A program made the translations under genes and the position numbers. Below are positions 7,357 through 53,178 of a stretch of DNA of 64,000 nt, piece after piece. Source of the DNA: Verrucomicrobiaceae bacterium (lineage in GTDB: Bacteria; Verrucomicrobiota; Verrucomicrobiia; Verrucomicrobiales; Verrucomicrobiaceae). Location: contig JAIBCL010000006.1 of the NCBI GenBank assembly GCA_019694165.1, forward strand, positions 186,001 through 250,000. The letters run 5' to 3'. Position 1 is the stretch's first letter; every line of letters starts with the position of its first letter. The notes below the pieces were generated by a model. That model was given only the letters and a program-made list of their open reading frames with translations, did no database searches and was not told the DNA's origin.

Positions 7357-7358
7357 AC

Positions 7359-8483: not shown

Positions 8484-8554
8484 GGGGGCGGCATGATGAG
8501 TGCGACGGGGGCGAATGCAAAAGGCAAAATGCGCCGGGAGGAGCGGCACGGTGC

Positions 8555-11638
<3,084 letters not shown>

Positions 11639-37822: not shown

Positions 37823-38314
37823 AATGGCTCTACATCCATCGTATGTAGGGGCTATCGCCCGCGCTATCGCGAATCCGCCGGTCAACAGAGCGACAACTTG
37901 CGCCCCCAACGTGTCCGGGCTACCGCCCGACCTCGCAGTTTTTCCATACGGCTATCGGGACTCGGAGCGGCCTAACCGGCGCACACTCGCCAAAAACCGC
38001 GAGGTCGGGCGCTACACGGGCTATCGCCCTGCCCGACACGTTGGGGGACTACTGGCGCACGACCACGCGCCGAGGGCGCGACGACTTCGCAGCCGCTAGC
38101 CGCAGGCTGCGCACGACCGCCGTTGGAAAAACTGCCGCGCTGTCCCCTGCCGCGACGAGCGGCGGTATGATGGTCGCGGAGCTTCGGGACTCACAGCCAG
38201 TCGCCATTACCCCGCCGACTCGTTCACACATCGTTTGTCGGCGGCTCATCCTGCAATGCCACACTGACACGGGGGCAGCGCAGGGGAATCGGAGTGGCGG
38301 CTGGCTCTGGAGCC
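37823..38314. other. Palindrome-rich non-coding segment upstream of the VirD4-like gene
   Basis: No credible gene is present in this stretch. Three GGGC-TAYC-GCCC mini-hairpins occur at 37849-37860, 37917-37928 and 38018-38029, with related GCGCTATCGC (37861) and CGGCTATCGGG (37949). A larger imperfect palindrome has outer arms 37903-37920 and 38031-38047 (17 bp with one extra C) and inner arms GCCCGACCTCGC 37925-37936 and GCGAGGTCGGGC 37999-38010. GCAGTTTTTCCA (37935-37946) is inverted at 38124-38135. Further stems are at 38067-38079, 38088-38111 and 38213-38243. An origin of transfer or replication, or a folded RNA, would fit. Confidence 0.65.
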
Positions 38315-39604
38315 ATGAACTGCGCACGCTGCCTTATCGGGCACCGCTACGGCTGGGGCGAAGATGTCCCATTCGGCATCTCCGCCACAGATCGGCGGCA
38401 GCATGTTTATGTGATCGGAAAAACCGGCTCCGGTAAATCGACCCTGCTGCGAAACATGATCATCCAGCATGTGTTCGCGGGCGATGGAGTCGGCTTGATT
38501 GATCCGCACGGCGACCTTGCCGAAGACATCCTCGATCATGTCCCGCCGTGGCGGGCCGATCACCTCGTCTATTTCAATCCAGCCGATACCGACTTCCCCA
38601 TCGGTTTGAATCCTCTCGCCAACGTCATGCCGGATGACCGGCATCTCGTCGCTTCGGGTGTCGTAGCCGCATTCAAAAGCATCTGGGCAGACTCGTGGGG
38701 GCCACGTTTGGAATACACGCTTCACAACGCCGTCGCCTCCCTGCTCCACTGTCAGAACACCTCACTCATCGGCATCAATCGCCTTCTCACCGACCCAAGT
38801 TATCGCGCATGGGTAGTGCGCCAGATCGACGATCCGTTTCTGCGCGACTACTGGACTCAGGAATACGAGAGCTACGATCCGCGCTTTTTGCGCGAGATCA
38901 TCGCGCCGATCCAAAACAAAGTCGGCCAGTTCATGCTCTCCCCCATCGTCCGCAACATACTTGGTCAGGTGTGCAGCAAAGTGTCCATTCCTTTCGTGAT
39001 GGACAACGAACGGCTGTTCATCGCCAACCTCTCAAAAGGCAAACTCGGCCACGACAAATCGAACCTTCTCGGCTCGCTGCTCACCACGCAGTTTCAACTC
39101 GCCGCAATGGCGAGAGCAGACACACCGGAGCATGAGCGCCGCGATTTCTACCTGTTCATCGACGAGTTCCAAAACTTCTCCACCGATGCCTTCGCCAGCA
39201 TTCTCGCCGAGGCGCGGAAGTATCGGCTCTCCCTCACTCTCTCCCACCAATACGTCGATCAGCTTTCGCTTCCCGTTCGGCAGGCGGTGTTCGGCAACGT
39301 CGGCACCATGATCGCCTTCCGCGTCGGCCACGCCGACGCCGACGCGCTCCATTTCGAGTTTGGCGAAGAATTTGTGCCGAGCGTTTTCGTCGATCTCAAT
39401 CGCTTCGAGATCATCGCCCGACTTCTTGAAAACGGCTCCAACACGCAGCCGTTCCGAGGCCGAACCATGCCACCGATTGATGAGCGCGTTGGCAGACGCG
39501 AGAAGCTGATTGCGCGATCACGGGAGCGATTCGCGACGCCACGAGCAGAGATTGAAGCGAAGCTCAATCGGTGGCTTACGTCGTCATCCGCCGTCAATTG
39601 CTGA
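38315..39604 (+). CDS. VirD4/TraD-like DNA-transfer ATPase (short form)
   Basis: The 429-residue protein has a Walker A motif GKTGSGKST near residues 35-43, LIDPHGDLAEDILDH, which is typical of type IV coupling ATPases with a TraM-recognition/TraD-DNA-binding domain, and the Walker B segment FYLFIDEFQNFS. The following LAEARKYRLSLTLSHQYVDQL and FGNVGTMIAFRVG segments are the C-terminal helicase-like half. It lacks N-terminal membrane helices, unlike classical VirD4. ATG 38315 has TGGAG seven bases upstream and is preferred over GTG 38294. It should pump DNA during transfer. A second, longer family member is at 50033-53107. Confidence 0.83.
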   Translation: MNCARCLIGHRYGWGEDVPFGISATDRRQHVYVIGKTGSGKSTLLRNMIIQHVFAGDGVGLIDPHGDLAEDILDHVPPWRADHLVYFNPADTDFPIGLNPLANVMPDDRHLVASGVVAAFKSIWADSWGPRLEYTLHNAVASLLHCQNTSLIGINRLLTDPSYRAWVVRQIDDPFLRDYWTQEYESYDPRFLREIIAPIQNKVGQFMLSPIVRNILGQVCSKVSIPFVMDNERLFIANLSKGKLGHDKSNLLGSLLTTQFQLAAMARADTPEHERRDFYLFIDEFQNFSTDAFASILAEARKYRLSLTLSHQYVDQLSLPVRQAVFGNVGTMIAFRVGHADADALHFEFGEEFVPSVFVDLNRFEIIARLLENGSNTQPFRGRTMPPIDERVGRREKLIARSRERFATPRAEIEAKLNRWLTSSSAVNC

Positions 39605-39650
39605 CCGAACGAGGCTTTGGTAGGGTCATTCGCGGATGAGTGCCTCGCGG

Positions 39651-39700
39651 GGTGTCAGCATGAAGCCCGTCTCACAGTGAGGCTGGCTTCTCCTGACACC
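39651..39700 (+). promoter_or_regulatory. 50-nt two-stem hairpin in the leader of the 39730 gene
   Basis: GGTGTCAG (39651-39658) pairs with CTGACACC (39693-39700), and inside it GAAGCC (39662-39667) pairs with GGCTTC (39685-39690). Both arms are perfect. The hairpin ends just upstream of an AAGGAGG ribosome-binding site. It could be a riboregulator, an mRNA stabiliser or a protein-binding site on DNA. Confidence 0.55.
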
Positions 39701-39729
39701 ACAACCCAAAACAGCAAGGAGGCATTCTC

Positions 39730-40023
39730 ATGTCCGTTTCCGCTACCGCGCCACCAAAGGCCAAATTCCCTCTTGGTAATCTTGTCTCGACACCAGGAGC
39801 ACTGGAAGTCCTCACGCATCCTGAAATCATGTCCGCGCTTTCGCGCCACATCACCGGAGATTGGGGCGAAGTCGATGCCGAAGACAAACGCGCCAACGAT
39901 CAATCCCTGATCGACGGCTCGCGACTGCTTTCCGCTTATCGCAGCCAAGACGGCACCAAGTTCTGGATCATCACCGAAGCCGACCGATCCGTCACCACCG
40001 TATTGCTGCCGGAGGAATACTGA
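39730..40023 (+). CDS. Hypothetical protein conserved-looking, 97 residues
   Basis: The product is a small soluble protein with no signal peptide or membrane segment. It has an N-terminal Pro/Ala-rich part, a helical middle (ALEVLTHPEIMSALSRHITGDWGEV) given here only in part, and a C-terminal strand-rich part (RLLSAYRSQDGTKFWIITEADRS, then VTTVLLPEEY). Start 39730 has an excellent AAGGAGG site eight bases upstream, and a strong terminator follows at 40049, so it forms its own transcription unit. I do not assign a function; the FWIITEADRSVTTVLLPEEY ending is typical of small plasmid proteins. Confidence 0.72.
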   Translation: MSVSATAPPKAKFPLGNLVSTPGALEVLTHPEIMSALSRHITGDWGEVDAEDKRANDQSLIDGSRLLSAYRSQDGTKFWIITEADRSVTTVLLPEEY

Positions 40024-40048
40024 TCGAGATCTGATGCAGCACTCGCGC

Positions 40049-40076
40049 CCCCGTCAAATCGACGGGGCTTTCTTTT
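40049..40076 (+). terminator. Rho-independent terminator
   Basis: CCCCGTC (40049-40055) and GACGGGG (40061-40067) form a 7-bp stem with a 5-base loop, followed by CTTTCTTTTCT. It lies 26 bp after the stop of the 39730-40023 gene. Confidence 0.85.
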
Positions 40077-40129
40077 CTCAAGACCACGGAGCGAGTCAGC
40101 ACACCTTGCATCATCTCCCCCGTGCCGAA

Positions 40130-40498
40130 TCACTCCTTCTCCACCCCATACACGCGCTTTTGCGCGTAAGTGGTCAACCAGACCGCAGCATCCACCGCCT
40201 CGCCGCGCTTTTCTTCCAGTGCGTCTCTAGCGTCTTGCGCGAGGCCGAGTGCGAGTTTCGCGGCGCAGTGTGGGTGAAGGGAAATGCCCATTTCCATAAA
40301 CTGCCAATAAATATACGGCGTGCCGAGCTTCTCTCCGCACTTGAAGCAGTCGTCGTGAATCTCGTTGCACTCCACTCGGCTCAACGGCTCTGCGAAGCCC
40401 ATCGCGGCCAGCTTGGATTTCTCCGCGTCCGTCAGGTCGGGATCAGTCATCCAGTCGGGATGCTTGGGGATGAAGTCTTGCTCTCGAATCAAGCTCAT
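40130..40498 (-). CDS. Hypothetical protein with Cys/His metal-site candidate
   Basis: The 122-residue protein has a charged N-terminus, a segment CNEIHDDCFKCGEKLG and a later LHPHCAAKL, which together could bind one zinc ion through CxxC plus HxxHC residues. The C-terminal part is helical (AQDARDALEEKRGEAVDAAVWL). I do not recognise a family. It is the only minus-strand gene between the coupling ATPase and the replication-relaxation gene and is divergent from the latter, with 23 bp between starts. Confidence 0.65.
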   Translation of the reverse strand: MSLIREQDFIPKHPDWMTDPDLTDAEKSKLAAMGFAEPLSRVECNEIHDDCFKCGEKLGTPYIYWQFMEMGISLHPHCAAKLALGLAQDARDALEEKRGEAVDAAVWLTTYAQKRVYGVEKE

Positions 40499-40521
40499 GG
40501 CTCGCGTGATAAAATAGCTTC

Positions 40522-41457
40522 ATGTCAATCACCGTCGCCCGGCGACTGCCGCGCTTTCGGCGCGTGAGCGATCAAGTATCGCCTATTCAAATTACGTCGC
40601 GCGACCTCGAAATCATCCGCCAAATCAGCCGACATCGCTTTTTGCGCTCCACACACGTCATCGCCCTCGCGGGTGGCAGCGCACAGCAAGTCTTGCGGCG
40701 ACTCCAGCGGCTCTACCACCTCGGCTATCTGGAGCGACCGAAATGCCAGATCGACTACTACCACCGCACCGGTTCGCAGCGCCTTGTGTATGGCCTCGCG
40801 CGGAAAGGCGCGACAGTGCTCGCCAGTCTCGGTGGTTCCGAACACAGACCCATCGATTGGAATGAGAAGAACCAGCACATAGGCCGCCCGTTTCTCGAAC
40901 ACGCTTTGCTCGTGAGTGACTTCACAGTTTTGCTCGAACTCTCCTGTCGCTCCCGAAACGATGTGCGGTTCATCACCGCCAACGAACTCCCGCTGCCGTC
41001 AGCCACACAGAAACTCGGTGAACCATTCCGTTGGGGCGTCACGATGCCCACTGGAGAAAAACTCGGCATTGTCCCCGATGCCGTTTTTGCCCTCGATCAA
41101 ACCCGCGCTGGCGGCACCATAGAGCGCACCTTCTACTTTCTCGAAGCCGACCGCGCCACCATGCCGATCACGCGACGCGGACTGAAACAAACCTCCTTCT
41201 TTCGCAAACTTCTCGCCTACGAAGCCACATGGTCACACGGCCTCCATCGTTCTCGCTTCGGTTTTCACCGCTTCCGCGTGCTCACAATCACCAGCACCTC
41301 GCAGCGCAGCACCAACCTCATCGCCGCCAGCCGCAAGCTGAGGAGCGGCCAAGGACTTTTCATGTTCTCCGATGCGGCGGCGCTCTCCTCTGCCGCCAAT
41401 GCGCTCGCGATGTCTTGGCGCACCGCGATCAATCAGACGGAAACACTCCTTCGGTGA
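40522..41457 (+). CDS. Replication-relaxation family protein
   Basis: The 311-residue protein has the N-terminal winged helix of the replication-relaxation family: LEIIRQISRHRFLRSTHVIALAGGSAQQVLRRLQRLYHLGYLE, given here in parts as ITSRDLEIIRQISRHRFLR and VLRRLQRLYHLGYLERP. It is followed by YGLARKGATVLASLGG and a C-terminal domain with a conserved IVPDAVFAL and FYFLEADRATMPI. Family members are found on plasmids and ICEs of many phyla and are thought to act in replication initiation or mobilisation. It supports the mobile nature of the region. Confidence 0.82.
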   Translation: MSITVARRLPRFRRVSDQVSPIQITSRDLEIIRQISRHRFLRSTHVIALAGGSAQQVLRRLQRLYHLGYLERPKCQIDYYHRTGSQRLVYGLARKGATVLASLGGSEHRPIDWNEKNQHIGRPFLEHALLVSDFTVLLELSCRSRNDVRFITANELPLPSATQKLGEPFRWGVTMPTGEKLGIVPDAVFALDQTRAGGTIERTFYFLEADRATMPITRRGLKQTSFFRKLLAYEATWSHGLHRSRFGFHRFRVLTITSTSQRSTNLIAASRKLRSGQGLFMFSDAAALSSAANALAMSWRTAINQTETLLR

Positions 41458-41609
41458 ATCTGCACCGCTCATCACACAATAAAGCGGCCCACTTGTCCAT
41501 AGCTGCCCCCTGTTGGTAGCATTCCCCGCAGAACACACGGCGGCGCTCGCATTGCCCCGTGTCAGTTCATCTCTGCAATCTCAACACGATCTGAAAGGAG
41601 TTCTTTCCC

Positions 41610-42647
41610 ATGTCTCAAAACACCAAAGCTCGGTGGGTCGATTTCGCCCACGTCAAAGCCTCGGTCACGATTGATCAAGTGCTTGTTCACTATGGCATCC
41701 GTGATCAGTTCAAACCCCAAGGCAGCGGCCAGAGCCTTCGCGGGCCGTGCCCCATTCATGGCGGCAAAGCCAAGGATTTCTCTGTAGATCTCAGCAAGAA
41801 CATCTGGATTTGCCATTCCAGCCGATGCTCATGCGGCGGAAATGTCCTCGACCTCGTGCGGCTCAAAGAGCAGACCACGCTTCGTCAGGCTGCCATTCTG
41901 CTTTGCGATTGGTTCAACATTTCGGATACGCCGAACGCGGATTCACACCCCGTGTCGGCTGATAGCAATCAGCCCAGGCGACAAAAACCGAAGGAGTATG
42001 CGCAAAAGCAAGAGCCGCCGAAAGCTGCTCGCGAGTCTGCCGAGGAGGCGAAGCCGAACAAACCACTCAGCTTCGCGCTATCCAATCTCGACCCCGCGCA
42101 TCCGTATCTTGCGGAGCGCGGATTGACGGCGGAAACCATCGAGCATTTCGGCCTCGGCTTCTGTGCAAAAGGCATGATGGCTGGCCGCGTCGTGGTGCCA
42201 ATCCACAACGCCGCCGCTGAACTCGTCGCCTATGCCGGACGCTGGCCCGGCGAGCCGCCGGACAAGGACACGCCAAAATGGAAGCTGCCGCCCGGTTACT
42301 GGAAGACGCAGGACATCTTCAACTTGTTCCGCATCGCCGAGGAACCGGCAGAGACGCCGCTCGTCATCGTCGAGGGCTTCATCGGTGCCATGTGGCTCCA
42401 CCAACTCGGCCACCACAAAGTCATCGCGCTGATGGGCAGCACGATGAGTGACGTTCAACTGTCCCTCATCGCCCAGCGCATCACAGCGAGCACTCGGATT
42501 GTCATCATGTTCGACGAGGACGAAGCCGGTCGCGAAGGCCGCGACGAAATCGCCCCGCGCCTCGCCGCGCTCTGTTACGTCCGCATCCACCGCTTCCCTG
42601 AAGAAGGAACGCAACCTGAGTCTTTACAGCAAAACACTGTCGAGTAG
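41610..42647 (+). CDS. DNA primase-like protein (CHC2 zinc finger and Toprim)
   Basis: The 345-residue protein has a CHC2 zinc-binding domain at the N-terminus (CPIHGGKAKDFSVDL, then WICHSSRCSCGGNVLDLVRL, residues about 45-85). A Pro/Lys-rich linker follows, then a DnaG-type N-terminal core segment (YLAERGLTAETIEHFGLGF). A Toprim domain has VIVEGFIGAMWLHQLG (near residue 252) and MFDEDEAGREGRDE (near 297) with the DxDxxG acidic site. It is shorter than DnaG and lacks the helicase-binding domain, as in element-borne primases. The ATG has AAAGGAG nine bases upstream. A hairpin (ACACGG at 41535, CCGTGT at 41557) lies in the leader. A decayed copy of its 3' end lies at 43740-44035. Confidence 0.88.
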   Translation: MSQNTKARWVDFAHVKASVTIDQVLVHYGIRDQFKPQGSGQSLRGPCPIHGGKAKDFSVDLSKNIWICHSSRCSCGGNVLDLVRLKEQTTLRQAAILLCDWFNISDTPNADSHPVSADSNQPRRQKPKEYAQKQEPPKAARESAEEAKPNKPLSFALSNLDPAHPYLAERGLTAETIEHFGLGFCAKGMMAGRVVVPIHNAAAELVAYAGRWPGEPPDKDTPKWKLPPGYWKTQDIFNLFRIAEEPAETPLVIVEGFIGAMWLHQLGHHKVIALMGSTMSDVQLSLIAQRITASTRIVIMFDEDEAGREGRDEIAPRLAALCYVRIHRFPEEGTQPESLQQNTVE

Positions 42648-42690: not shown

Positions 42691-43023
42691 TCACAGGTTT
42701 AGCAATACTAGCGACACCACGCCCAGCGCAAAGCCGATCATCTCGCGCGTGGTGAGATGCTCTCCGAAGAGCACAAGGCCGCAGATGGCAAGGCTCACGC
42801 TCCACAATACCGAGAACAAGACTCCCGAAGTGGCGAGCTTGGCAGTTTGCAGCACGATCACCCAACTGAAGCCGCACAGGCCGTAGATCAATGAACCCAC
42901 GATGAAGCTACCGGAGGTGAACGGTCGCGGCAGCGCGGCGGCGCGCTTGAAGAAGACATCACCGATGGCGCAGATGAGCACCAACCAGACAATATGAAGC
43001 CATGCCACCGCGCTCATTTGCAC
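42691..43023 (-). CDS. Small four-helix transporter (SMR/EamA-like)
   Basis: The 110-residue product consists of four hydrophobic segments: WLHIVWLVLICAIGDVFFK, FIVGSLIYGLCGFSWVIVL, LFSVLWSVSLAICGLVLF and MIGFALGVVSLVLLNL. This is the size and layout of small multidrug resistance or half-size EamA transporters, which work as dimers exchanging cationic compounds for protons. The SMR membrane glutamate is not obvious in helix 1, so substrate is uncertain. The start overlaps the end of the SET gene by 10 bp (or 4 bp if the ATG at 43017 is used), suggesting co-translation. Confidence 0.75.
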   Translation of the reverse strand: MQMSAVAWLHIVWLVLICAIGDVFFKRAAALPRPFTSGSFIVGSLIYGLCGFSWVIVLQTAKLATSGVLFSVLWSVSLAICGLVLFGEHLTTREMIGFALGVVSLVLLNL

Positions 43024-43379
43024 CGGAACGAGTAGCCCAACTGGCGGTAATCTAGCGTGATCTCTTCACCCGGCAGGATGTCGCGGATCGCGGTGATCGT
43101 GTTACCGCCGTCCGTCGCGTTCGGGGTGTCGGAATGGTTAATGAACCGGTCATCGTCACCGGTCAGCAGGTAGCAGCCGCAGTCGTTTTCAAACGACGAG
43201 TAGTAGAGCACCTGCCTCTGGGCGTGAGGCGACAAGTTTCTGAGTTCGTTTTCTGTGTAGCGAACGTCAAACGGCGGGTCGAATGCCCAGATAGTTTCCC
43301 CCGCCTTGATGTGTTGATGGGCGAACAAACCTTGGCCGTGAATGAGGGAAGGTTGGGCAGTGGCGTGAACTCGAAGCAT
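43014..43379 (-). CDS. SET domain protein (lysine methyltransferase-like)
   Basis: The 121-residue product is a compact SET domain. It starts VHATAQPSLIHGQGLFAHQHIKAGE, the G-x-G-L-F segment that binds S-adenosylmethionine, has DDRFINHSDTPNA with the diagnostic NHS pseudoknot motif, and ends with ILPGEEITLDYRQL, matching the GEEITxDY motif. Catalytic residues appear intact, so protein-lysine methylation is a fair prediction; the substrate is unknown. Start 43379 (MLRVHAT) was chosen; the frame further upstream runs antisense to the XRE gene. An operator pair begins three bases upstream of this start. Confidence 0.85.
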   Translation of the reverse strand: MLRVHATAQPSLIHGQGLFAHQHIKAGETIWAFDPPFDVRYTENELRNLSPHAQRQVLYYSSFENDCGCYLLTGDDDRFINHSDTPNATDGGNTITAIRDILPGEEITLDYRQLGYSFRCK

Positions 43380-43381
43380 CG

Positions 43382-43422: not shown

Positions 43423-43461
43423 TCACAATCAAAAAGGCCCATATTCTCGCGGGGTCTTCTC

Positions 43462-43722
43462 ATGGCAGCCCCGCGCAACATCGTCGGCCCCCAGGTCATG
43501 CGGATTCGGAACGGCAAGAGCATGTCCCAATCCGATCTGGCTGTGGCGTGCCAATTGATCGGCTGGGACGTGTCGCGCGGCGTCATCGCCAGGATCGAGG
43601 GCCGCGTGAAATGGGTGTCGGATTCGGAACTGCTCCAACTGGCGAAGGCACTGAAAGTGACTGTTCCCGAACTCTTTCCCAAAAGCGCGCAGCGATTATT
43701 TCGAATCGCGCAAGCTGGTTAG
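43462..43722 (+). CDS. XRE-family helix-turn-helix regulator
   Basis: The 86-residue protein is a single helix-turn-helix domain: VMRIRNGKSMSQSDLAVACQ, then IGWDVSRGVIARIEGR and VSDSELLQLAKALKVTVPELF. It is divergent from the SET gene, with two well-formed tandem palindromes in the 82-bp gap, so it is probably the repressor of both. The insertion in the recognition helix region (LIGWDVSRGVIARIE) is typical of the branch that contains phage-like regulators. It has the only regulator gene in this part of the island. Confidence 0.85.
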   Translation: MAAPRNIVGPQVMRIRNGKSMSQSDLAVACQLIGWDVSRGVIARIEGRVKWVSDSELLQLAKALKVTVPELFPKSAQRLFRIAQAG

Positions 43723-43739
43723 ACCGCGCTCATTTGCCC

Positions 43740-44035
43740 TGCTCACCAAAGTAAAGACCGCCACTACCACAAAGTCATGCCCCTCATGGGCGGCTCGATG
43801 AGAGCTTCTCAAATCACATATCGCCCAACACCTTACGGAAGACACCCGCATCATCGTCATGCTCGTCGAAGACAACGCCGGGTGAGCAGGCCGCGAGCGA
43901 ATCGCTCACCACCTCGCCCCCCCTCTGCTATACGCGCACCCGCCGGTTCACGGAAGGAATGCAGTCGGTGAGCCTTTTACTGTGACAACAACTCCACCCC
44001 GCTTCTCCGATGGGGCGGCTTCGTTCCTGTCGTTT
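43740..44035 (+). pseudogene. Decayed second copy of the primase 3' end and its terminator
   Basis: The sequence CACAAAGTCATGCCCCTCATGG and what follows aligns with the primase region from about 42400 onward (there CACAAAGTCATCGCGCTGATGG; both quoted in part). In one frame it encodes RIIVMLVEDNAG, then a stop, then AGRERIAHHLAP, matching RIVIMFDEDEAGREGRDEIAPRLA in the intact gene. A stop codon replaces the Arg codon after the Toprim DxDxxG motif and a frameshift separates the two halves. The similarity continues past the stop into the terminator (CCCCGC...GGCGGC at 43997-44015). This is a diverged segmental duplication, not a functional gene. Confidence 0.7.
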
Positions 44036-44101
44036 GTCCTGCAAACTCCTAAACCGCCTTGTTGTCAACAGTTGCTTGTGGTATCAAAGCCAACGACATT
44101 T

Positions 44102-44830
44102 ATGTCCACTCAACCAGAATCTCCAAGGAGAAAGATTGCGAGGGGCCTACAAAACGCGGCCATGCCAATCTTTTACTTGGTGGCGACCTTCGTTCTTGTC
44201 GGTGTCTGGAGAATCCTTGATTGGCCGCAGGGTGACGAGCTGATCAAGCTCGTTCGCGGATTATTTGCCCAATACGGAATATGGTTTGTATTAGTGTCGG
44301 CCATCCTTGAGGGGCTTGTTCTAGTCAATATCTATGTGCCTTGCTCTTTCGTAATAGTGATGGCCGTTATCCTAGCGAGAGGCGACCCGCTGCGGGCAGC
44401 TCTCTCTGTTGTGGCTACTCAATGTGGATTTTTGCTTTCATCGTTCGTAAATTATGGGATAGGCATACTTGGGCTCGCTCCTCTGATTGAGAAGTTCCCA
44501 GCAGGAGCTTCATTAACCAAGCGAGCTGAAGCATGGCAGATGAAATGGGGTGCAATGGCGATTGGCTTGTCATATTGGCACCCGAACTTTGGGGCGTTTG
44601 CAGCCGTGAATGCCGGAAAAGGTCGCGTTCCCTTTCCGCTTTTCTTAAAATGGGTAATTCCTGCGATTGTCGCTTGGAACACTTTATTCGGGCTGCTCTT
44701 CTACTTCTTCGCACCACGAGCGGAGGCAGCCGCGTCATCCACTCCCATCTTATTCGTTCAGGCGATATTCGGGGTGTGGGCGACGACGGCTTTCCTGCTT
44801 GGATTTTTTCGAGCCTCTAGTCGGAAATGA
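44102..44830 (+). CDS. VTT/DedA-like integral membrane protein
   Basis: The 242-residue product has about five or six hydrophobic segments (PIFYLVATFVLVGVWRIL, GIWFVLVSAILEGLVLVNIY, SFVIVMAVILA, WVIPAIVAWNTLFGLLFYFF and a final FVQAIFGVWATTAFLLGFF). The middle pattern Q..FLLSSFVNYGIGILG, then WQMKWGAMAIGLSYWHP and AVNAGKGRVPFPLFLKWV, resembles the VTT (DedA/SNARE-associated) domain, including the W...KWG and the conserved AG..RVPF element. DedA proteins are linked to lipid-carrier recycling. Start 44102 was chosen because it has a proper N-terminal charged head. Base composition is lower in GC than the surroundings. Confidence 0.6.
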   Translation: MSTQPESPRRKIARGLQNAAMPIFYLVATFVLVGVWRILDWPQGDELIKLVRGLFAQYGIWFVLVSAILEGLVLVNIYVPCSFVIVMAVILARGDPLRAALSVVATQCGFLLSSFVNYGIGILGLAPLIEKFPAGASLTKRAEAWQMKWGAMAIGLSYWHPNFGAFAAVNAGKGRVPFPLFLKWVIPAIVAWNTLFGLLFYFFAPRAEAAASSTPILFVQAIFGVWATTAFLLGFFRASSRK

Positions 44831-45183
44831 GTTTCCGATTCGTTCACGAAATTTACGAAGTCTCCTTCCTCATACTGAAGCACTTTGATTGTCCCATCTG
44901 GAAGTTCCAGCAAGTCGCAGTTCGATTTCGGTGCCAGCAACACCCTCCAAGGTTTAACCCCACGTTTGATCTCAATTATCACCCCGTGATTAAGCCAAAG
45001 GCAATCAATAGAGTGATTCATAAAACATGTATGAAACCAATTCGCCCTGGGGATATATAGCCCCATCCTCTGCCAACCGGCACCCCGGAATAGTAGACCC
45101 CTTACACGGTCTAAGCGAGAGACTGCTCGCAAAAATTGGACAAAGTGCATTCCCCACTTCTCTGTTACTTCTTCAGGCACCAT
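44758..45183 (-). CDS. DUF192-like protein
   Basis: The 141-residue product shows the DUF192 pattern: RGLLFRGAGWQRMGLYI, then the short TCFMNHSIDCLWL, which corresponds to the conserved T.FM...ID..FL segment, and the K...KPWRVLLAPKSNCDLLELPDG ending, given here in two parts (KRGVKPWRVLLAP, CDLLELPDG). The function of DUF192 is unknown. Its start overlaps the membrane-protein gene by 11 bp. Its 3' end overlaps the convergent VTT-like gene by 73 bp, an unusual arrangement, so the tail after VLQYEEGDFVNF may be read-through. Confidence 0.65.
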   Translation of the reverse strand: MVPEEVTEKWGMHFVQFLRAVSRLDRVRGLLFRGAGWQRMGLYIPRANWFHTCFMNHSIDCLWLNHGVIIEIKRGVKPWRVLLAPKSNCDLLELPDGTIKVLQYEEGDFVNFVNESETHFRLEARKNPSRKAVVAHTPNIA

Positions 45184-45793
45184 CTTGTCCTAAGCTGATC
45201 GTCGGAGCGACCGTGTTGCGATTTATCGCATTGGCAGCGACTTTAATCATCATGATTGAATGAAATCCAATGAAGAGGCGGACGAAAAGAATGACATTCC
45301 ACCGAGGCCATCGCCATTCGCCGAATGTGATACCAGAATCAACGTAGGTCTTTACAAACTCAAGCTTACCTAGAGCACCCCCCAACAACAACCAAATTAC
45401 GAATAGAAGGAAAAACACCCCAGATCCAATACAAAGGCCTTCAAGTGTTCCAAGCCAGTATTTTGCAGGGGAGGTTACCACAACCTGTGTGCCATCCTTC
45501 TGACCGAGTACAACAACCGCCCACATAAGAGCTGTAAATTGTGCAATCCAAAAGTAGATTCCCAGTACGGTCGTGTAGAACTGAAGAGAGTAATCTACCA
45601 AGCCAAAACTCTGCGTGTTCTTGAAAAGATCAGCATATTGCTTCCACTCGGGGTCTGAACCCAGGTTAAACAAGTCGGCTTTTGTTCGGAACATCGCAAT
45701 GCCAAACAACAAAGGAAGAACTGACGGAATGGCGAATGCCGGTGTCGCGAGGAGGTTCAGGAACTTTTTCGCGTGATGGATATGGCTTGCCAT
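45173..45793 (-). CDS. Hypothetical integral membrane protein
   Basis: The 206-residue protein has four hydrophobic segments: ATPAFAIPSVLPLLFGIAMF, LQFYTTVLGIYFWIAQFTALMWAVVVL, GLCIGSGVFFLLFVIWLLLGG and WNVILFVRLFIGFHSIMMI (longer spans quoted in part). No family was recognised. It lies between the isoprenoid synthase-like gene (22 bp upstream) and the DUF192-like gene (overlapping by 11 bp), so the three form a compact minus-strand operon. Membrane location next to a prenyl-synthase-like enzyme suggests a lipid-related cargo function. Confidence 0.65.
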   Translation of the reverse strand: MASHIHHAKKFLNLLATPAFAIPSVLPLLFGIAMFRTKADLFNLGSDPEWKQYADLFKNTQSFGLVDYSLQFYTTVLGIYFWIAQFTALMWAVVVLGQKDGTQVVVTSPAKYWLGTLEGLCIGSGVFFLLFVIWLLLGGALGKLEFVKTYVDSGITFGEWRWPRWNVILFVRLFIGFHSIMMIKVAANAINRNTVAPTISLGQDGA

Positions 45794-45815
45794 TCTGTGG
45801 AGGCATTTGGGGTTT

Positions 45816-46883
45816 CTATGTTGTTTGAGCGATAACGATCAGTTGTCGCCTAAAGATGTCGATCTCGGTCTTGTCCTTTCTGTGCGAAGGAAGTTCCAGC
45901 AACGTCACGGCTTGCGTGTGGGCTGTTTTGACTTCTTGGTATAGCCAATCGAAGTAACCGCTTACCGCACCGTTACAACGTCCAAGCGTTTTTAATGATA
46001 ATCTACAGCGCTCTATTGCATCAATACAAATAGAAAGCGCCTTGGACAGATTCGGCTCCCCACTTACATCTAACCAGAATTGGTCAGGCTTTTGATCAAA
46101 GCGCGAGCGACCCTCGCAAGGGCGCAGCCCCCTCAATGGAAATGTATGGTGTCCTCGGAGCCAGTCATCGTGTAGATCGGTAATATCATCCAACAACTGA
46201 AACGCGATTTTTATGGAATCGACCATCTTCACAACCTCTCGTCGTTTGAGCTTGAGATGTGCTTTGGTCAAGGTGCTTGCCTGAGCGAACGCCTCAGTGC
46301 AAATATCGAGAGCCGAAACTTTTCTTGAAGCCATCGCAAGTTCCTGTCGGATCAATTTGACGCCGCGCGCTCGATAGAATCCAGGTTCATCGACCGCAGC
46401 AGCAGCGCAGGCACGAAGAGAAGCCTCTATACGCGAAGCGATCAACTTCGGATATAGTGCGTTTTGGCTGAACAGGCTCGCTCCTCTGGCAACGAGAAGA
46501 GGTGCTGCGATTGCGAAGGCTCCTCTCTCGATTGACAAATCCTCGTCAAGGATGTCATCGACAATCAATATTGCTGTGTAAATGTGAAGCCAAGCAATCG
46601 CCAGAGCAACAGTGTCGTCCTTGCTAACTTGAAAAAGGTCTCCGAGTATGATCGGCAGCTTCTCCCCTAGCATCGGATCACCTTCGGAGCGCCGGACTCT
46701 CGATTTCCAAAACGCCGAAACCTGCGCCCCTATAGCCGGAGGTAGCTCGTCGAGCGAACGATCGAACGCTTCTCTTACAGCCACAACAGTGCCACCGTCA
46801 AAAAAACTAAAGAATGGAGACACTGGAGCTTTCGCTGACCGAAAAACGCAAGTTCCTGTTTGTTTCATGACAGAATATGCCAC
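45816..46883 (-). CDS. Class I isoprenoid synthase-like enzyme
   Basis: The 355-residue protein has both aspartate-rich motifs of trans-isoprenyl diphosphate synthases and class I terpene enzymes: DDILDED at residues 109-115 and DDITDLHDD at 232-240, each at the end of a helix. The surrounding helical pattern is consistent with the all-alpha fold. Sequence outside the motifs is not that of housekeeping farnesyl or octaprenyl synthases, so it may be a specialised synthase, a terpene cyclase or a ComQ-like prenyltransferase. The residues before about 40 may be leader. It heads a three-gene operon and has lower GC than its flanks. Confidence 0.75.
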   Translation of the reverse strand: MAYSVMKQTGTCVFRSAKAPVSPFFSFFDGGTVVAVREAFDRSLDELPPAIGAQVSAFWKSRVRRSEGDPMLGEKLPIILGDLFQVSKDDTVALAIAWLHIYTAILIVDDILDEDLSIERGAFAIAAPLLVARGASLFSQNALYPKLIASRIEASLRACAAAAVDEPGFYRARGVKLIRQELAMASRKVSALDICTEAFAQASTLTKAHLKLKRREVVKMVDSIKIAFQLLDDITDLHDDWLRGHHTFPLRGLRPCEGRSRFDQKPDQFWLDVSGEPNLSKALSICIDAIERCRLSLKTLGRCNGAVSGYFDWLYQEVKTAHTQAVTLLELPSHRKDKTEIDIFRRQLIVIAQTT

Positions 46884-47105
46884 GATTCTAGCGGCTCACG
46901 ACTTCTTGTCGATACCGATTTTGTGAATTTGGGGATTGCATTTCCCGGCTGCGCAAGTGGCTTGAATGACCGATTCTAATTTGAACTGCAATCAATGAAT
47001 GGGCTGCCTTGCGCACCCGCTTTCTGACCTCACCGCTGGTTGAGGTTGTGATTGACGAATCTCGCCAATCCATAAGCTTATCCATGTTCTAGGTCTGCTC
47101 CCGAA

Positions 47106-49331
47106 ATGACCGCGCGAACAGCACATTCCAGTTTGGACGGCACTTCCACTTGGTTGAGCCTTGGGGGTTGCATCCTTGGACTCGCAGTCGCGTTCGTGTG
47201 GCTACCGGATTCACTTTGGGAACATTTTTTGCCCTCCCTTCCCGCCAAGCTTTTCTCGCCGTTATTCACTTCGTCGTTTGTGGCAGGCTGGGTCGTCGGT
47301 CTGTGTCGCCTTAAAACAGGCCGCGCTGAACGAGAAGGGGCGAGCCTGTCTCGGGCTTCGGTCGCGGGGCTGATCACGGCAATAGTGGCCTGCCTCGCGG
47401 CCCACGCGGCGAGCATGGGGCCGCGCGGCGCGTCATCACTGCCTCTATCTGTTGCCGCCGCGTTCCTCGCGCTGGGGATGCTCCCGAGCGCGATGTTCGC
47501 CACGTTCGGTGCGGGATTCGCGAACGCCATCCCGCGTTGGATTGGCGCGCTTGTGGCCGGAGTGATGATTTTGGTTTGGCCGGCTGGTTATCTGATTGGG
47601 CGGATGGTGGAAAAGAAGCCGGTTACATTGCACACGGCACAGCCCGTTGTCGCTCCCCCGCCGAAACCATCGCCGCGCTACGCGAAGCCCAAGGACTTCG
47701 ATGCGGCGAATGCTTGGAAGCGAACTGTGCTCCGAGAAGACGTGATTTCGGACATGGCGAGCGGATCGCCGCTAGTGCTCTCGCGCTCGGAGCAGCGGAT
47801 TGCATTCGTCAGCAGCGTGAACGGTAAGTTATTGCTCACCGTGCGCCACCTTTATGCATCGGATCAAGATCGTGCGGTTGGATTGGCGGGAGGAGCTGTT
47901 GCGCTCGGGTGGTCGCCGGACGACAGCCGCCTCGTTTCCCTTGGAGGCGACGGCGTGTTTTCGGTTTGCGAACCGGAACGCGGCTCGCTGATTCCGTTGC
48001 CAATTCCGAAAATCAAATCGAGTGATGTGTCCGGTTTCGTGTGGTGGCAAGCGGAAGACGTGCTGGTGATTTCTCGACGCGGCGAGCCGCAGATGCTCTC
48101 GCTGGATACGTTGCGGCTGATGCCCACGAGCCAGCATCAAGGCTGGGCGGCTTTGAAGGACGCGGATCGGCGGCGCATTGTGGGGACTGCGGACATGCCG
48201 CCGCTGCATTCGGGCGACAAGCTTCGGTATTCACTGGATGCGAGCGGCGATGCTCGCTCCTTGATGGCGCATGATACGCAAGCGCTCTACGGCCGCGTTC
48301 TCGCCGCCAATCTCGCAGGGGTGCGGCAAGCCTTCTCGAATCGCGACGGGAGCATCCTCTTTCTCGCGGAGCGCGAGCGGTTGAGGTCTTTGTACATAGG
48401 TCTTCGTGATGCGCCAACGCTGCGCTTCGTTGCGGAGAGTCGCGAGGACTTCCCCGCGACCGACGCAGCGAAGGCTGCAATCAAGGATCGCTCCATTGAG
48501 TGCCTGATCGCGCCACCGATCATCAACCCGCTCAACGGCAAGACGGTCTCCGGCGATGTCGAGCACGCGAAGGGGCTGGCCCGTGTCATCGCGGCTGATG
48601 GCAAGACGGCCACCGTTTGGGTAACCGAGGAACGCGCCCCGATTCACGAGGGCGACGTGGTGATGCTGCCCCGCGCTGCCCTGCCGAATGGAGGCGCGCT
48701 GCTTTCGCCGACGTGGTTCGCCGTTCTCACGAAGGCAGACGCGAGCCAGGACATTCCCCGGCGTGAGATCGAAAAGCCTCCCGTTGCGGCCGTTACCACG
48801 AAGCCGGACGCTCCACCTGCAACGCCCGTGACTGAGAAGCCGCCGGCTACCAGTCCCGTGCAATCTCCAGCGCCTAAGGCTGAACCGATGCTCATCATAC
48901 CGCCGAAGAAAACCGAACCCCATCCCCCGCCGACTATGAGCGCCGAGGACAAGGTTCGGCAACTGGTGGTGCGGCACCACGAAGCGCTGAGCAAACACGA
49001 TCTCGACGGCGTGCTGGACACCTGCGGCGCAATCGCCACGATCAACGGGAAGGATCACACCCGCGCAGAAGTCCGCTCGACCCTGATCGGCATTTTTTCC
49101 CAAAAGTCGCGCATCGTTGAAAGCGTGGACGGCGAGATCGACGTGCGGCGCGGCCAGAACAGCCGGTTCACTGCGAGCTACGATTTCGTGTTCGAGGCGA
49201 GCATTCCGCACGGTGATGATGAGCGCGGATACGGCCACATCGACATGGACGTGCTGCTCACCACGCAGGGGCCGAAAATGGTGAAGAAGTCGATGCGCGT
49301 GCTCCGCGTCGATAAGCTCAGAGGGAAATAG
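47106..49331 (+). CDS. Large membrane protein with propeller-like and NTF2-like domains
   Basis: The 741-residue product has about five N-terminal membrane segments (for example WLSLGGCILGLAVAFVWLP, GLITAIVACLAAHAA and GALVAGVMILVWPAGYLIG, up to about residue 165). A WD40-like region follows (residues about 190-560, with GWSPDDSRLVSLGGDGVFSV), then a Pro/Lys linker (560-620) and a C-terminal NTF2/SnoaL-like domain (VRQLVVRHHEALSKHDLDGVLD, then FTASYDFVFEASI). I do not recognise the combination. It is followed at 6 bp by the 49337 gene and then the coupling ATPase, so it probably belongs to a transfer operon. Confidence 0.7.
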   Translation: MTARTAHSSLDGTSTWLSLGGCILGLAVAFVWLPDSLWEHFLPSLPAKLFSPLFTSSFVAGWVVGLCRLKTGRAEREGASLSRASVAGLITAIVACLAAHAASMGPRGASSLPLSVAAAFLALGMLPSAMFATFGAGFANAIPRWIGALVAGVMILVWPAGYLIGRMVEKKPVTLHTAQPVVAPPPKPSPRYAKPKDFDAANAWKRTVLREDVISDMASGSPLVLSRSEQRIAFVSSVNGKLLLTVRHLYASDQDRAVGLAGGAVALGWSPDDSRLVSLGGDGVFSVCEPERGSLIPLPIPKIKSSDVSGFVWWQAEDVLVISRRGEPQMLSLDTLRLMPTSQHQGWAALKDADRRRIVGTADMPPLHSGDKLRYSLDASGDARSLMAHDTQALYGRVLAANLAGVRQAFSNRDGSILFLAERERLRSLYIGLRDAPTLRFVAESREDFPATDAAKAAIKDRSIECLIAPPIINPLNGKTVSGDVEHAKGLARVIAADGKTATVWVTEERAPIHEGDVVMLPRAALPNGGALLSPTWFAVLTKADASQDIPRREIEKPPVAAVTTKPDAPPATPVTEKPPATSPVQSPAPKAEPMLIIPPKKTEPHPPPTMSAEDKVRQLVVRHHEALSKHDLDGVLDTCGAIATINGKDHTRAEVRSTLIGIFSQKSRIVESVDGEIDVRRGQNSRFTASYDFVFEASIPHGDDERGYGHIDMDVLLTTQGPKMVKKSMRVLRVDKLRGK

Positions 49332-49336
49332 CTGCC

Positions 49337-50029
49337 ATGTTCGGACTGTTTTCATTGCGGAAGCCCGAGGTGCATAAGCACCAGGGCACCTACATCGAGA
49401 AGTTCAGCGTCCCGCCCGGCGAGTTCTACGCGGCCATCGAGCGCGAGATCGCGGCGCTCGGCATCCCCGACATCGCCGTGTCCCGCGTGTTCTACCGCGA
49501 GGGCGGGCCGGTCTCCGCCGAGCGCGAATACCTCCGCATCGGCCGGGGGCGGCTCGGATACATTGTCTGCGCCGCGAGCTGGGGCACGAGCTTCTTTTTC
49601 AGCAAGCGGTTCACCGAGAAGACGCGCAACCTGCGCGTGTGGGAGGTCGTCGCCATGCTCGCGTTTCTCGCGAGCGCGTTCGCCGCCTACTGGCAGTTTC
49701 TCGGCCTCGTGTGGGGCATCATCATCTTCGTGCTCAATGTCATTGCAGCCGCCATGCTGTGTCGGAACGCGGTCGCGATGGGCTGGGATTGGCTCGACGA
49801 TTTGCTCCTCCGCCTGCCAGTCATCGGCACCTTCTACGAGAACTATCTGCGGCCCGGCGCTTACTTCAAAGACGACACGCTCGGCCTATTCGTAAACCTC
49901 GCCGATTCTATTGTTGATCGCCAGATCAAGGCATTCACCGCGGATAGTGGCGTGACGCTCGGCGAGTTCAAAGACCTCAAACCCGAAGGCAAGCTCGCGG
50001 CGTTTGTCCGGAAATTAGTCGGAGGATGA
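49337..50029 (+). CDS. Hypothetical membrane protein of the transfer operon
   Basis: The 230-residue protein has a soluble N-terminal domain (EKFSVPPGEFYAAIEREIAAL, FYREGGPVSAEREYLRIGRG) and two central membrane helices (VVAMLAFLASAFAAYWQFLG and VWGIIIFVLNVIAAAML). The C-terminal part is soluble (VNLADSIVDRQIKAFTADSG). No family name was recognised. It sits between the 741-residue membrane protein gene and the large coupling ATPase gene with 6-bp and 4-bp gaps, so the three are almost certainly co-transcribed. It may anchor the ATPase, which has no membrane helix of its own. Confidence 0.7.
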   Translation: MFGLFSLRKPEVHKHQGTYIEKFSVPPGEFYAAIEREIAALGIPDIAVSRVFYREGGPVSAEREYLRIGRGRLGYIVCAASWGTSFFFSKRFTEKTRNLRVWEVVAMLAFLASAFAAYWQFLGLVWGIIIFVLNVIAAAMLCRNAVAMGWDWLDDLLLRLPVIGTFYENYLRPGAYFKDDTLGLFVNLADSIVDRQIKAFTADSGVTLGEFKDLKPEGKLAAFVRKLVGG

Positions 50030-50032
50030 CGC

Positions 50033-53000
50033 ATGGGTTGGCTCGACGACCAGATTTCAGATCAGTTCTGGACGTGGGAGGCGCTGGGGCGCGGGGTGCT
50101 CACGTTTCCCGAACCCGTGTCGCCGTCGCCGCCATTCGTGCCCTTCACGGGCTACCGGCTGCCGCAAACGCAGGATGACGGGCGTCGGCCAGGGTTGCTT
50201 GAACGAATGTCGAAGGCGTTCCGCTCCGAGCCTCCCCCACTGCCAGAGGTCGAGGACGAGGAACCGGAACCGAACTGGCGCGGGGAAAAAGAATTCTGCG
50301 AGACACTGGTGCTGCTGCCGGAGTCATTCAAGGCGGATAGCGAGGTCTTCGGGCGGATGCTCGCCAATATGCAGGGTTGCTGCGATGCAATGGCGTTCGA
50401 GATCGTGGGTGCGCCGGGGCGCGTGGTCTGCCAACTTGCGACGAGCGTTGACGATGCGGCTTCGGCACGCCGGCAACTGACGGCGCACTTTCCAGAGGCG
50501 TCATTCGTGCCGTGCGATGGCAATCTGGCCTCCGCGTGGCTGGCGGAAAATGAGGCGCACAGCGCCATCGTCGAGTTCGCGCTATGCCGCGAGTTCATGC
50601 TCCCGCTGGCGCGGAGCAAGACCGATCCGTTCGTCGGCTTGGTCGGGGCGCTGTCCGATCTCGGCGACGGCGAGGCGGGCGTGTATCAGGTGATCTTCGA
50701 GCCGCTGGCCGAGCCGTGGGCGGAGAGCGCGTTCGCCGCTGTCGCGGATGGCGAGGGCAAGCCGATCTTTGACGACCGCCCGGAGCTGGTGAAGGCCGCC
50801 GCCGACAAGCTGTCGCAGCCGCTCTACGGCGCGGTGGTGCGCATTGCAGCCCGCAGTGTGGACTTCCACCGCGCGTGGGAAATCGCACGAGAGATGGCCT
50901 CCGCGCTGCGCGTGTTCTCGTGGCGCAACGGCAACGAGCTTTTCCCGCTGCCTAACGACAACTATCCCCACGACGAGCACGAGCGCGATTTGCTGATGCG
51001 GCAGACGCGGCGCAGCGGGATGATCCTCAACGTGGACGAGTTGATTGGCTTCGCCCACTTCCCCACTGCGGCGGTGCGGTCGCCGGTGTTCGCCCGCTTC
51101 GCGGCGGACACGCGACCGGCCAGCATCGCGCGACGTGACGGCGTGTTTCTCGGATTCAACGAGCACGCTGGAGAAACGAGAGAAGTGTGGCTCGATGCGC
51201 AATCGCGACTGCGGCACTGCCACATCATCGGCGGCACCGGCACGGGCAAATCGACGCTGATGCTCTCGATGATCGCGCAGGACATCGAGCACGGCGAGGG
51301 GTTCGCCTTGCTCGACCCGCACGGCGACTTGGTTGATGCCGTGATGGGCTTGATTCCGCCGGAGCGCGCGGGCGATGTCGTATTGCTCGATCCGTCCGAC
51401 GAGCAGTTCGTCGTGCCGTTCAACATCCTCTCCGCGCACTCAGACTTCGAGAAGCAGCTCCTCGCGAGCGACCTCGTGTCCGTGTTCCAGCGCCTCAGCA
51501 CGAGTTGGGGCGACCAGATGCAGGTGGTGATGCAGAACGCGGTGCTCGCCTTTCTCGAAAGCGACGAGGGAGGCACACTCGCCGACGTGCGGCGGTTCCT
51601 CATCGACGCCGCTTGGCGGGAGCGGTTCCTGCGCACCGTCGCCGATGCCGACGTGCGCTTCTACTGGCGGAGCGCGTTCCCGCAGCTCGGCGGCGGGCGC
51701 AGCATCGGGCCGATCCTCACGCGATTGGAGACGTTCCTCTCGCCGAAGCCGATCCGCTACATGGTGTCGCAGCGCGAGAACCGGCTCGACTTCGACGCGA
51801 TCATGGGTGGCGGGAAAATCTTCCTCGCGAAGCTGCCGCAGGGAGTGATTGGCCGAGAGAACGCCTTCCTGCTCGGCAGCCTCCTCATGACGAAGCTGCA
51901 ACAGGCGGCGATGGGCCGCGCGCGCATGAGCGCGGCGGAGCGCGTCCCGTTCCACTGCTACATCGACGAGTTCCAGCACTTCATCACGCCGTCGCTCACC
52001 GAGATACTGAGTGGCGCGAGAAAGTATGGCCTTGGCCTCGTGCTCGCGCACCAAGAGCTAAAGCAATTGGAGCGCGACCGGGACATGGCGAGCGCCGTGC
52101 TCGCCAACGCCTTCACCCGCGTCGTGTTCCGCGTCAGCGATTCGGACGCGCGGACCCTCGCGGAGGGCTTTGCGCACTTCGAGGCACGACACTTGCAGAG
52201 CCTCGGCACCGGCGAGGCGCTGTGCCGCATCGGGAGCGCTGGCAACGATTTCAACTTGTCCGTGCCACTGCCGCCGGAGATTGACGAGGAAGACGCGACT
52301 GCGAATCGCGCTGCTGTGATCGAGGTGTCGCGCGCAACGTATGCGATGCCGCGCAGTGAGATTGAGGCCGAGATGCTGCGGCGGCTCGAAGCGGAGGAAG
52401 TCGCGCAACCGCCGCGCAGAGCGAAGCCCGCGCCGGTGAGCGAGCCGCTGGCGGTAACCAAATCGGATACCAAGTCGGCAGCCGAGGTGGTTAACGAAAC
52501 GAGCGAGCACACGGAGGCGGCGGAACCGCCAGCAGAAGTAAACCAGGCCGCGCCAACGAGCGCGGGCATGGGACGCGGTGGATTGGATCACCAGTTCATC
52601 GTCGAGCAGCTTGCCGTTGATGCGATCCGCTTTGGCTACCGGGCCACCAAGGAATTCGCGGTGCCAGACGGGCGCGTGGACATCGCGCTGGAGAAGCGCG
52701 AGCGGCGGATCGCAATCGAAGTGGCGGTGAACACGAACACCGCCCACGAGATGGAGAACATCTTGAAGTGCTTCGCGGGCGGCTTCGATCATGTCGTGTC
52801 GCTCTCGCCGCTGCCCAACGTGCTCGAGAACATCCGACGCGCAGCCGGGCGACGATTGCCGTCGGAACAACTGTCGCGGATGCAGTTCCACGCGCCGGGG
52901 AGTTTCCTCGCGTGGCTGGAGGTCATCTCCGCGAGCGACGCGGAGAGTGTCGCGCAACCTTCCGACGAGATGCGCACATACGGCGGCAGGCGCGTCCGCA

Positions 53001-53107
53001 TCAAGCGCGTTGAACTCGCGCCGGACGAGCGAGCACGACTGGAGAAAGAGCACTTGGCGGCCATCGCGGAGATTCTGAGCAGTAGCTCAACAACGAGCGC
53101 TGATTGA
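50033..53107 (+). CDS. VirD4/TraD-like DNA-transfer ATPase with C-terminal nuclease-like domain (long form)
   Basis: The 1024-residue protein has an N-terminal domain of about 380 residues with no recognised motif, Walker A GGTGTGKST near residue 400, LLDPHGDLVDAVMG, Walker B FHCYIDEFQHF near 640, and LSGARKYGLGLVLAHQELKQL, the same ATPase core as the gene at 38315-39604. The C-terminal third has a Pro/Glu linker and then a domain with GYRATKEFAVPDGRVDIAL and RRIAIEVAVNTN, which resembles a PD-(D/E)xK nuclease core with Lys replaced. GGAGG lies upstream of the ATG. It shares repeated DNA motifs with the gene at 35570. Confidence 0.85.
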   Translation: MGWLDDQISDQFWTWEALGRGVLTFPEPVSPSPPFVPFTGYRLPQTQDDGRRPGLLERMSKAFRSEPPPLPEVEDEEPEPNWRGEKEFCETLVLLPESFKADSEVFGRMLANMQGCCDAMAFEIVGAPGRVVCQLATSVDDAASARRQLTAHFPEASFVPCDGNLASAWLAENEAHSAIVEFALCREFMLPLARSKTDPFVGLVGALSDLGDGEAGVYQVIFEPLAEPWAESAFAAVADGEGKPIFDDRPELVKAAADKLSQPLYGAVVRIAARSVDFHRAWEIAREMASALRVFSWRNGNELFPLPNDNYPHDEHERDLLMRQTRRSGMILNVDELIGFAHFPTAAVRSPVFARFAADTRPASIARRDGVFLGFNEHAGETREVWLDAQSRLRHCHIIGGTGTGKSTLMLSMIAQDIEHGEGFALLDPHGDLVDAVMGLIPPERAGDVVLLDPSDEQFVVPFNILSAHSDFEKQLLASDLVSVFQRLSTSWGDQMQVVMQNAVLAFLESDEGGTLADVRRFLIDAAWRERFLRTVADADVRFYWRSAFPQLGGGRSIGPILTRLETFLSPKPIRYMVSQRENRLDFDAIMGGGKIFLAKLPQGVIGRENAFLLGSLLMTKLQQAAMGRARMSAAERVPFHCYIDEFQHFITPSLTEILSGARKYGLGLVLAHQELKQLERDRDMASAVLANAFTRVVFRVSDSDARTLAEGFAHFEARHLQSLGTGEALCRIGSAGNDFNLSVPLPPEIDEEDATANRAAVIEVSRATYAMPRSEIEAEMLRRLEAEEVAQPPRRAKPAPVSEPLAVTKSDTKSAAEVVNETSEHTEAAEPPAEVNQAAPTSAGMGRGGLDHQFIVEQLAVDAIRFGYRATKEFAVPDGRVDIALEKRERRIAIEVAVNTNTAHEMENILKCFAGGFDHVVSLSPLPNVLENIRRAAGRRLPSEQLSRMQFHAPGSFLAWLEVISASDAESVAQPSDEMRTYGGRRVRIKRVELAPDERARLEKEHLAAIAEILSSSSTTSAD

Positions 53108-53178
53108 AGTGGGATCAAGTAGAGCTTTTCAGTTGCGCAAAGGTAATTCGTGGCTAAATTCCCAACAAAGTAAATGCC

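Follow-up and report, generated by a model that had tools for sequence, protein, structure and literature searches.

Cassette and carrier element

The DNA analysed here is a 64,000-nucleotide stretch (the window; positions 186,001 to 250,000 of contig JAIBCL010000006.1) of a Verrucomicrobiaceae bacterium with a genome of 7.8 Mb, and at 44102-46883 it contains a low-GC cassette of four genes inside an integrated mobile element (Table 1). Three of the genes are packed on the minus strand in an operon-like manner, the gene for a divergent class I isoprenoid-synthase-like protein (hereafter the enzyme) being separated by 22 bp from a membrane protein gene that in turn overlaps a DUF192 gene by 11 bp. 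A convergent gene for a VTT/DedA-like membrane protein faces them, with a 73-bp overlap with the DUF192 gene. The sequence features suggest that the enzyme is a rare, mobile class I isoprenoid enzyme that does not elongate chains and has membrane proteins as partners. Open reading frames (ORFs), GC content and profiles all agree with the original prediction of lower-GC foreign cargo encoding these four kinds of protein, and the predicted arrangement of an operon facing a VTT/DedA-like gene was also found.

Table 1. Coordinates of the cassette, its surroundings and the related cassette (window positions unless another locus is given)
Feature	Position	Strand	Evidence or remark
Divergent class I isoprenoid-synthase-like enzyme, 355 aa	45816..46883	-	ORF, profile match to trans-isoprenyl diphosphate synthases, tree; GTG start codon, alternative ATG at 46868 possible
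First Asp-rich motif, DDILDED	46539..46559	-	residues 109-115; aligned with the first Asp-rich motif of 26 synthases
Second Asp-rich motif block, QLLDDITDLHDDWLRGHHTFPL	46134..46199	-	residues 229-250; DDITDLHDD at 46164-46190
Four-helix membrane protein, 206 aa, no family	45173..45793	-	ORF, hydropathy
DUF192 protein, 141 aa	44758..45183	-	Pfam score
VTT/DedA-like membrane protein, 242 aa	44102..44830	+	profile match
Relative's cassette: Atg22-like MFS, four-helix protein, enzyme, GNAT	L136 (G752:C46:36000-50500), 4697-8558
Left backbone: TraD-like ATPase, 97-aa protein, replication-relaxation protein, DnaG-type primase	38294..42647	+
Right backbone: 741-aa and 230-aa membrane-type proteins, large TraD-like ATPase, serine recombinase	47106..54888	+
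EamA/SMR-like small membrane protein adjoining the cassette	42691..43023	-	host-like GC
Small SET-domain protein	43014..43379	-	Pfam SET, 51.8 bits

The four cassette genes have a GC content of 0.47-0.51 and a third-position GC of 0.49-0.52, compared to 0.70-0.71 at third positions in the neighbouring primase and 741-aa protein genes. In 1-kb bins, 44001-47000 (0.50, 0.47 and 0.50) is the GC minimum of the window; the flanking bins have 0.575 and 0.61, and the next lowest bin has 0.551. Promoter- and terminator-like sites in the cassette did not exceed chance level, repeats at its ends were just short, chance-like pairs, and an Rfam search gave no match. A 65-aa ORF on the minus strand (46888-47085) ends 4 bp before the GTG of the enzyme gene; its GC is flat over the codon positions (0.51/0.48/0.49), and it is probably not a gene.

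An integrated element carries the cassette as horizontally acquired cargo; the backbone of this element, made up of TraD-like ATPases, a replication-relaxation protein, a primase and a serine recombinase, is a recurrent one. The large TraD-like ATPase is present in 21 of the 59 genomes of the host's family. For comparison we used ten related elements from ten genomes, including a second element on the host's own contig. The backbones of these elements align and the genes standing between the backbone genes vary from one element to another, which identifies 42691-47000 as a cargo slot. The enzyme, membrane protein, DUF192 and VTT genes are absent from all ten (34 loci searched, with matches only in the window's own L004 and L005).

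The enzyme and its single relative

In Pfam, the only signal for the enzyme was a match to the trans-isoprenyl diphosphate synthase family PF00348 with 14.6 bits (E = 0.019), which does not reach the gathering cut-off of 27. NCBIfam returned weak matches to isoprenyl diphosphate synthase models, and PHROGs gave weak unnamed matches for both the enzyme and the VTT protein. Against a reference profile built from 26 ordinary synthases, those of the host and of its relatives, hhalign gave 88% in an alignment of 265 columns that brings both motifs into register, and 93% when the enzyme was combined with its relative from locus L136 (described below). The enzyme's score against the synthase profile was 50.0, a value reached in 0 of 150 composition shuffles (maximum, 23.4) and in 0 of 150 shuffles that kept the motifs (maximum, 45.9); it dropped to 23.4 when both motifs were masked, and the same profile scored 9 to 21 with 18 other proteins of the window. 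From these shuffle, masking and other-protein controls, the enzyme is likely to be homologous to the trans-isoprenyl diphosphate synthases, and its signal comes mostly, but not wholly, from the motifs.

Two other assignments found no support. A squalene/phytoene synthase (PF00494) was suggested by the short second-motif loop but was rejected by profile: Pfam gave no such match at E ≤ 1, and hhalign against 23 of these proteins gave 1.6% for the enzyme alone and 5.9% for the enzyme with its relative. Canonical bacterial terpene cyclases have NSE/DTE as their second motif; no model of this kind matched in Pfam or NCBIfam at E ≤ 1, and the second motif here is DDITDLHDD. A PDB sequence search gave no meaningful match for either the enzyme or the relative.

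Both aspartate-rich motifs are intact, as had been predicted. The aspartates of the first aspartate-rich motif (FARM) are D109, D110 and D113, those of the second (SARM) are D232, D233 and D236, and the spacing between the motifs is 123 in the enzyme versus 127 or 133 in the 15 relatives listed. Of the 38 columns conserved (≥85%) in the 26 synthases, the enzyme has kept 15, including all six motif aspartates and the glutamine preceding the second motif. It has lost all five residues of G-K-R-(x)-R-P, both conserved histidines near the first motif, a conserved arginine after that motif and the lysine of KT, and the usual GKxxGKD loop is absent at the second-motif block. We take G-K-R-x-R-P, the conserved histidines, the KT lysine and the GKxxGKD loop to be the parts that bind isopentenyl diphosphate (IPP). 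The enzyme thus resembles the PF00348 synthases in both motifs, in the FARM-SARM spacing and in the profile match, but differs from them in its sub-cut-off score, in the lost IPP-site residues and in the missing loop.

The host carries three ordinary synthases of its own, so that routine elongation is already provided, and the enzyme is not one of them. In a tree of 42 proteins, the enzyme groups with the L136 relative (96/83); the pair is on the synthase side but belongs to none of the host-type clades (long, short and third-type). Placement within the housekeeping polyprenyl synthases of the host was the outcome that the original prediction had named as refuting it, and the enzyme, on a long branch, falls outside them all. 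The third type of polyprenyl synthase occurs in the host and its relatives at L003 (G000:C12), L085-L088 and L138:4223-5995, the last of these copies being fused behind a DUF116 domain. The tree also held a very divergent squalene/phytoene-synthase-like protein at L060 (G056:C1, about 882 kb; 33 bits), with a branch length of 7.1.

Relatives were sought in samples of 386 genomes from the host's order, 387 from the phylum and 365 from the class, draws that overlap, so the number of distinct genomes is smaller than their sum. Over all three samples a single relative was found, a 334-aa protein encoded at L136:6708-7712 in genome G752. By phmmer, the enzyme matched only the window itself in the order and phylum samples. 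The class search listed 70 places at E ≤ 1, including the window's own, and of these only G752 (E = 1.5e-5) was accepted; G872 (9.2e-4) and G868 (0.005) were rejected, both being ordinary PF00348 proteins, and 66 others were left aside. The enzyme and the relative have a pair score of 116, against a maximum of 61 in 1,000 shuffles, and among 50 proteins the relative is the enzyme's best BLAST match (E = 9e-8; the next match, 0.001). The two proteins have in common the second-motif block QLLDDxxDxxxDxxxGxxTxPL and a P..L...F...S pattern preceding the first motif. Immediately upstream of the relative's gene are a four-helix ORF of 190 aa and an Atg22-like MFS gene, and a GNAT gene follows it; all four have a GC content of 0.51-0.55. 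TniB- and Mu-transposase-like genes start 0.9 kb beyond this cassette, and no convincing transposon ends were found in L136.

Searches of plasmids by tblastn (E ≤ 0.01) gave no homologue of the enzyme; 13 weak rows at E ≤ 10 overlie flavohaemoprotein or other unrelated genes and were dropped. No homologue was found in phages, nor by pattern scans of genome contigs or viral contigs. The pattern scans of the genome contigs, which covered a set of 85,000 genomes, have low sensitivity for so divergent a protein, and the rarity of the enzyme may therefore be overstated. The relative likewise had no homologue in plasmids, phages or viral contigs, and in 35 genomes around G752 it matched only itself, one row at E = 0.07 with two stops having been dropped. 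No literature on such a cassette was found in open-access titles and abstract openings.

Partner proteins, neighbouring genes and sister elements

The 206-aa protein has four membrane segments by hydropathy, and no homologue was found in plasmids or in 387 genomes, where one match with an E value of 0.007 and two stops was dropped. The DUF192 protein passes the Pfam cut-off (PF02643; 31.9 bits versus 27), and hydropathy shows no membrane segment in it. The VTT gene was missed by the Pfam VTT model in its own genome even at E ≤ 10, and the NCBIfam match to UptA (E = 7e-5) is far below cut-off. Against a profile of 25 DedA proteins of relatives, hhalign gave 97% with a score of 73.2 (maximum in 100 shuffles, 24.9). 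In the phylum, 3 of 336 other genomes had a match to this protein (E, 4e-5 to 2e-4), and plasmids gave three weak matches (E, 0.07 to 0.09). By profile, the VTT fold is common to this protein and the DedA/UptA undecaprenyl-phosphate flippases (COG0586), but these have a first arginine in the second re-entrant helix, present in 24 of the 25 DedA proteins, where the VTT protein has Tyr158. Arginine residues of this helix are reported as essential in the COG0586 flippases (PMC10127716).

Left of the cassette, the SET-domain gene overlaps the EamA/SMR-like gene, and both have a host-like GC content (42691-43379, minus strand); the SET-domain ORF remains open upstream to 43682. The EamA/SMR-like protein is probably cargo separate from the cassette. 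Between the left backbone genes there is a minus-strand ORF of 122 aa (40130-40498). On the host's contig, the other element of this family (L033/L034; G000:C19:56800-82000) carries CBASS-like E1-E2/JAB genes and genes for a Csx27-like protein, a methyltransferase and an LmuA-like protein. Ten other proteins picked from the cargo of sister elements represent RND efflux, metal efflux, ABC-transport, acyl-synthase, biosynthetic and other genes. The cargo of one same-family element (L026:6126-14054), with PPDK-like, FAD monooxygenase-like, KAS III and DUF3419 proteins, looks like a small biosynthetic cluster.

Interpretation and competing explanations

We put the probability at just under one in two (about 0.48) that the enzyme is a far-diverged class I member from the trans-isoprenyl diphosphate synthase side, likely non-elongating with IPP, in a cassette acquired horizontally as cargo. 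Since the metal-binding motifs are kept and the parts for elongation are lost, a product other than the cell's routine lipids is suggested. A prenyl diphosphate made by the host, be it geranyl, farnesyl or geranylgeranyl diphosphate (GPP, FPP or GGPP), would be bound through Mg2+ held by both motifs and ionised without the addition of IPP, after which the cation would be quenched within the pocket or by a non-IPP acceptor. The enzyme would then act as a terpene synthase or a small-molecule prenyltransferase; the lipophilic product may be handled at the membrane by the four-helix protein, or may elicit a response from it, and the DUF192 and convergent VTT-type proteins may be accessory. The gene layout, GC content, element context, motifs, residue losses, tree position and single relative are observations, whereas we infer that the enzyme is catalytically active and does not elongate, and likewise what its substrate and product are and what its partners do.

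In ordinary synthases, it is through Mg2+ at these two motifs that the allylic substrate and IPP are bound (PMC5331326). PMC10962984 and PMC12376265 describe insect terpene synthases that derive from elongating isoprenyl diphosphate synthases, and for which kept aspartate motifs together with lost IPP-contact residues serve as the criterion, confirmed by assay. By analogy with these insect enzymes, we expect the window enzyme to ionise a prenyl diphosphate without adding IPP. In its kept aspartate motifs and lost IPP-contact residues it is like LlTPS and PsTPS1 of those reports, a likeness by description only, and these are animal duplicates while the window enzyme is a bacterial mobile gene. 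In termites, terpene synthases are described among GGPPS-like proteins with substituted motifs, and an FPPS-like protein with disrupted aspartate motifs is given as inactive (PMC13143122).

Several points weigh against a non-elongating mobile enzyme. In the N-terminal IPP region the alignment, at about 22% identity, is uncertain, which means that some of the losses may be shifts, and a basic pair, R64-R65, lies near the G-K-R-x-R-P site. The residue rule for non-elongation rests on insects and not on bacteria. The enzyme and the relative are on long branches that may attract each other, as the program warned, and the single-sequence AlphaFold model of the enzyme was uninformative (predicted local distance difference test, pLDDT, 42). 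Taken by itself, the relative matches the synthase profile weakly (8.6%) and matches nothing in Pfam. A relationship between the four-helix proteins at the two loci could not be demonstrated (134 of 1,000 shuffles reach their score), no DUF192 or VTT gene was recognised beside the relative, and the gene order differs.

In one alternative, the enzyme would still elongate chains, as a prenyl diphosphate synthase whose IPP site is rearranged, and would supply a special polyprenyl for lipids or glycans of the envelope. This would fit the two intact DDxxD motifs, of which the second usually binds IPP, as well as the membrane and VTT-type partners and the one arginine retained after the first motif (ERG for RRG). 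The alternative is unlikely, given the extent of the IPP-site losses, the three ordinary synthases already in the host and the tyrosine in the VTT protein. The lipid-carrier bypass of the original prediction is disfavoured because a working VTT flippase would be wanted and the near-invariant arginine is a tyrosine; the lost IPP site speaks against it as well. That the enzyme is a decaying or non-catalytic relic carried along by the element would agree with its very long branch and the near absence of relatives, but all six motif aspartates and four intact, tightly packed ORFs make this improbable.

A role in anti-phage or inter-bacterial conflict, with a prenylated compound being made or consumed and the four-helix protein acting at the membrane, is made conceivable by what the slot holds elsewhere: the CBASS-type genes, methyltransferase and LmuA-like protein of the host's second element, and a type III restriction system, an oligonucleotide cyclase and PDC-S06 in G013. 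In a check of such cargo, 10 of 10 proteins picked from two elements for their defence-like look gave matches. None of the cassette proteins, however, matched any of 5,027 PADLOC models (E ≤ 0.1), the slot is also used for metal-efflux, ABC-transport and biosynthetic genes, and the neighbours of the relative are MFS and GNAT genes, so that we regard this explanation as improbable too. The least probable of the explanations, and a very unlikely one, is a peptide or protein prenyltransferase producing a prenylated signal. ComQ belongs to the same superfamily and has the FARM in common with the enzyme, and a lost IPP site with a kept Mg site would suit such an activity. ComQ has a neighbouring ComX gene for a precursor of 53-58 aa with tryptophan third or fourth from the C-terminus. 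It also needs an N/G-D-x-x-x pseudo-SARM, an aspartate in the first place sharply lowering activity (PMC5331326). The enzyme has DDITD, there is no sensor kinase in the cassette, and the 66 ORFs of at least 22 aa in 43600-47150, read by eye, include no convincing precursor. Just one of the 66 has tryptophan third or fourth from the end, a 36-aa ORF (45441-45551) with a TTG start, out of frame inside the membrane protein gene. PalQ (PMC10853753), compared by description only, is likewise a remote superfamily member in a small gene cluster, but near the enzyme only out-of-frame short ORFs, and no gene for a precursor with a C-terminal tryptophan, were recognised. Among the three roles originally proposed, a terpene-type product thus remains the best, and the ComQ-like signal and the lipid-carrier bypass have lost ground.

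Bolder, and in our view doubtful, is the proposal that the window enzyme and the L136 relative represent a new mobile class I branch, recognisable by QLLDDxxDxxxDxxxGxxTxPL and by the loss of the IPP site. Such an enzyme would be paired with its own dedicated four-helix protein in a two-component system, travel between bacteria on TraD/serine-recombinase and Mu/Tn7-type elements and make a terpenoid or prenylated product for conflict or signalling. If the preferred reading of a non-elongating mobile enzyme is true, a branch of bacterial isoprenoid enzymes would be travelling as cargo and would have been overlooked by curated models, one member lying below the Pfam cut-off and the other having no match at all. 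It would also be a bacterial parallel to the route taken in insects from a chain-elongating synthase to a terpene synthase.

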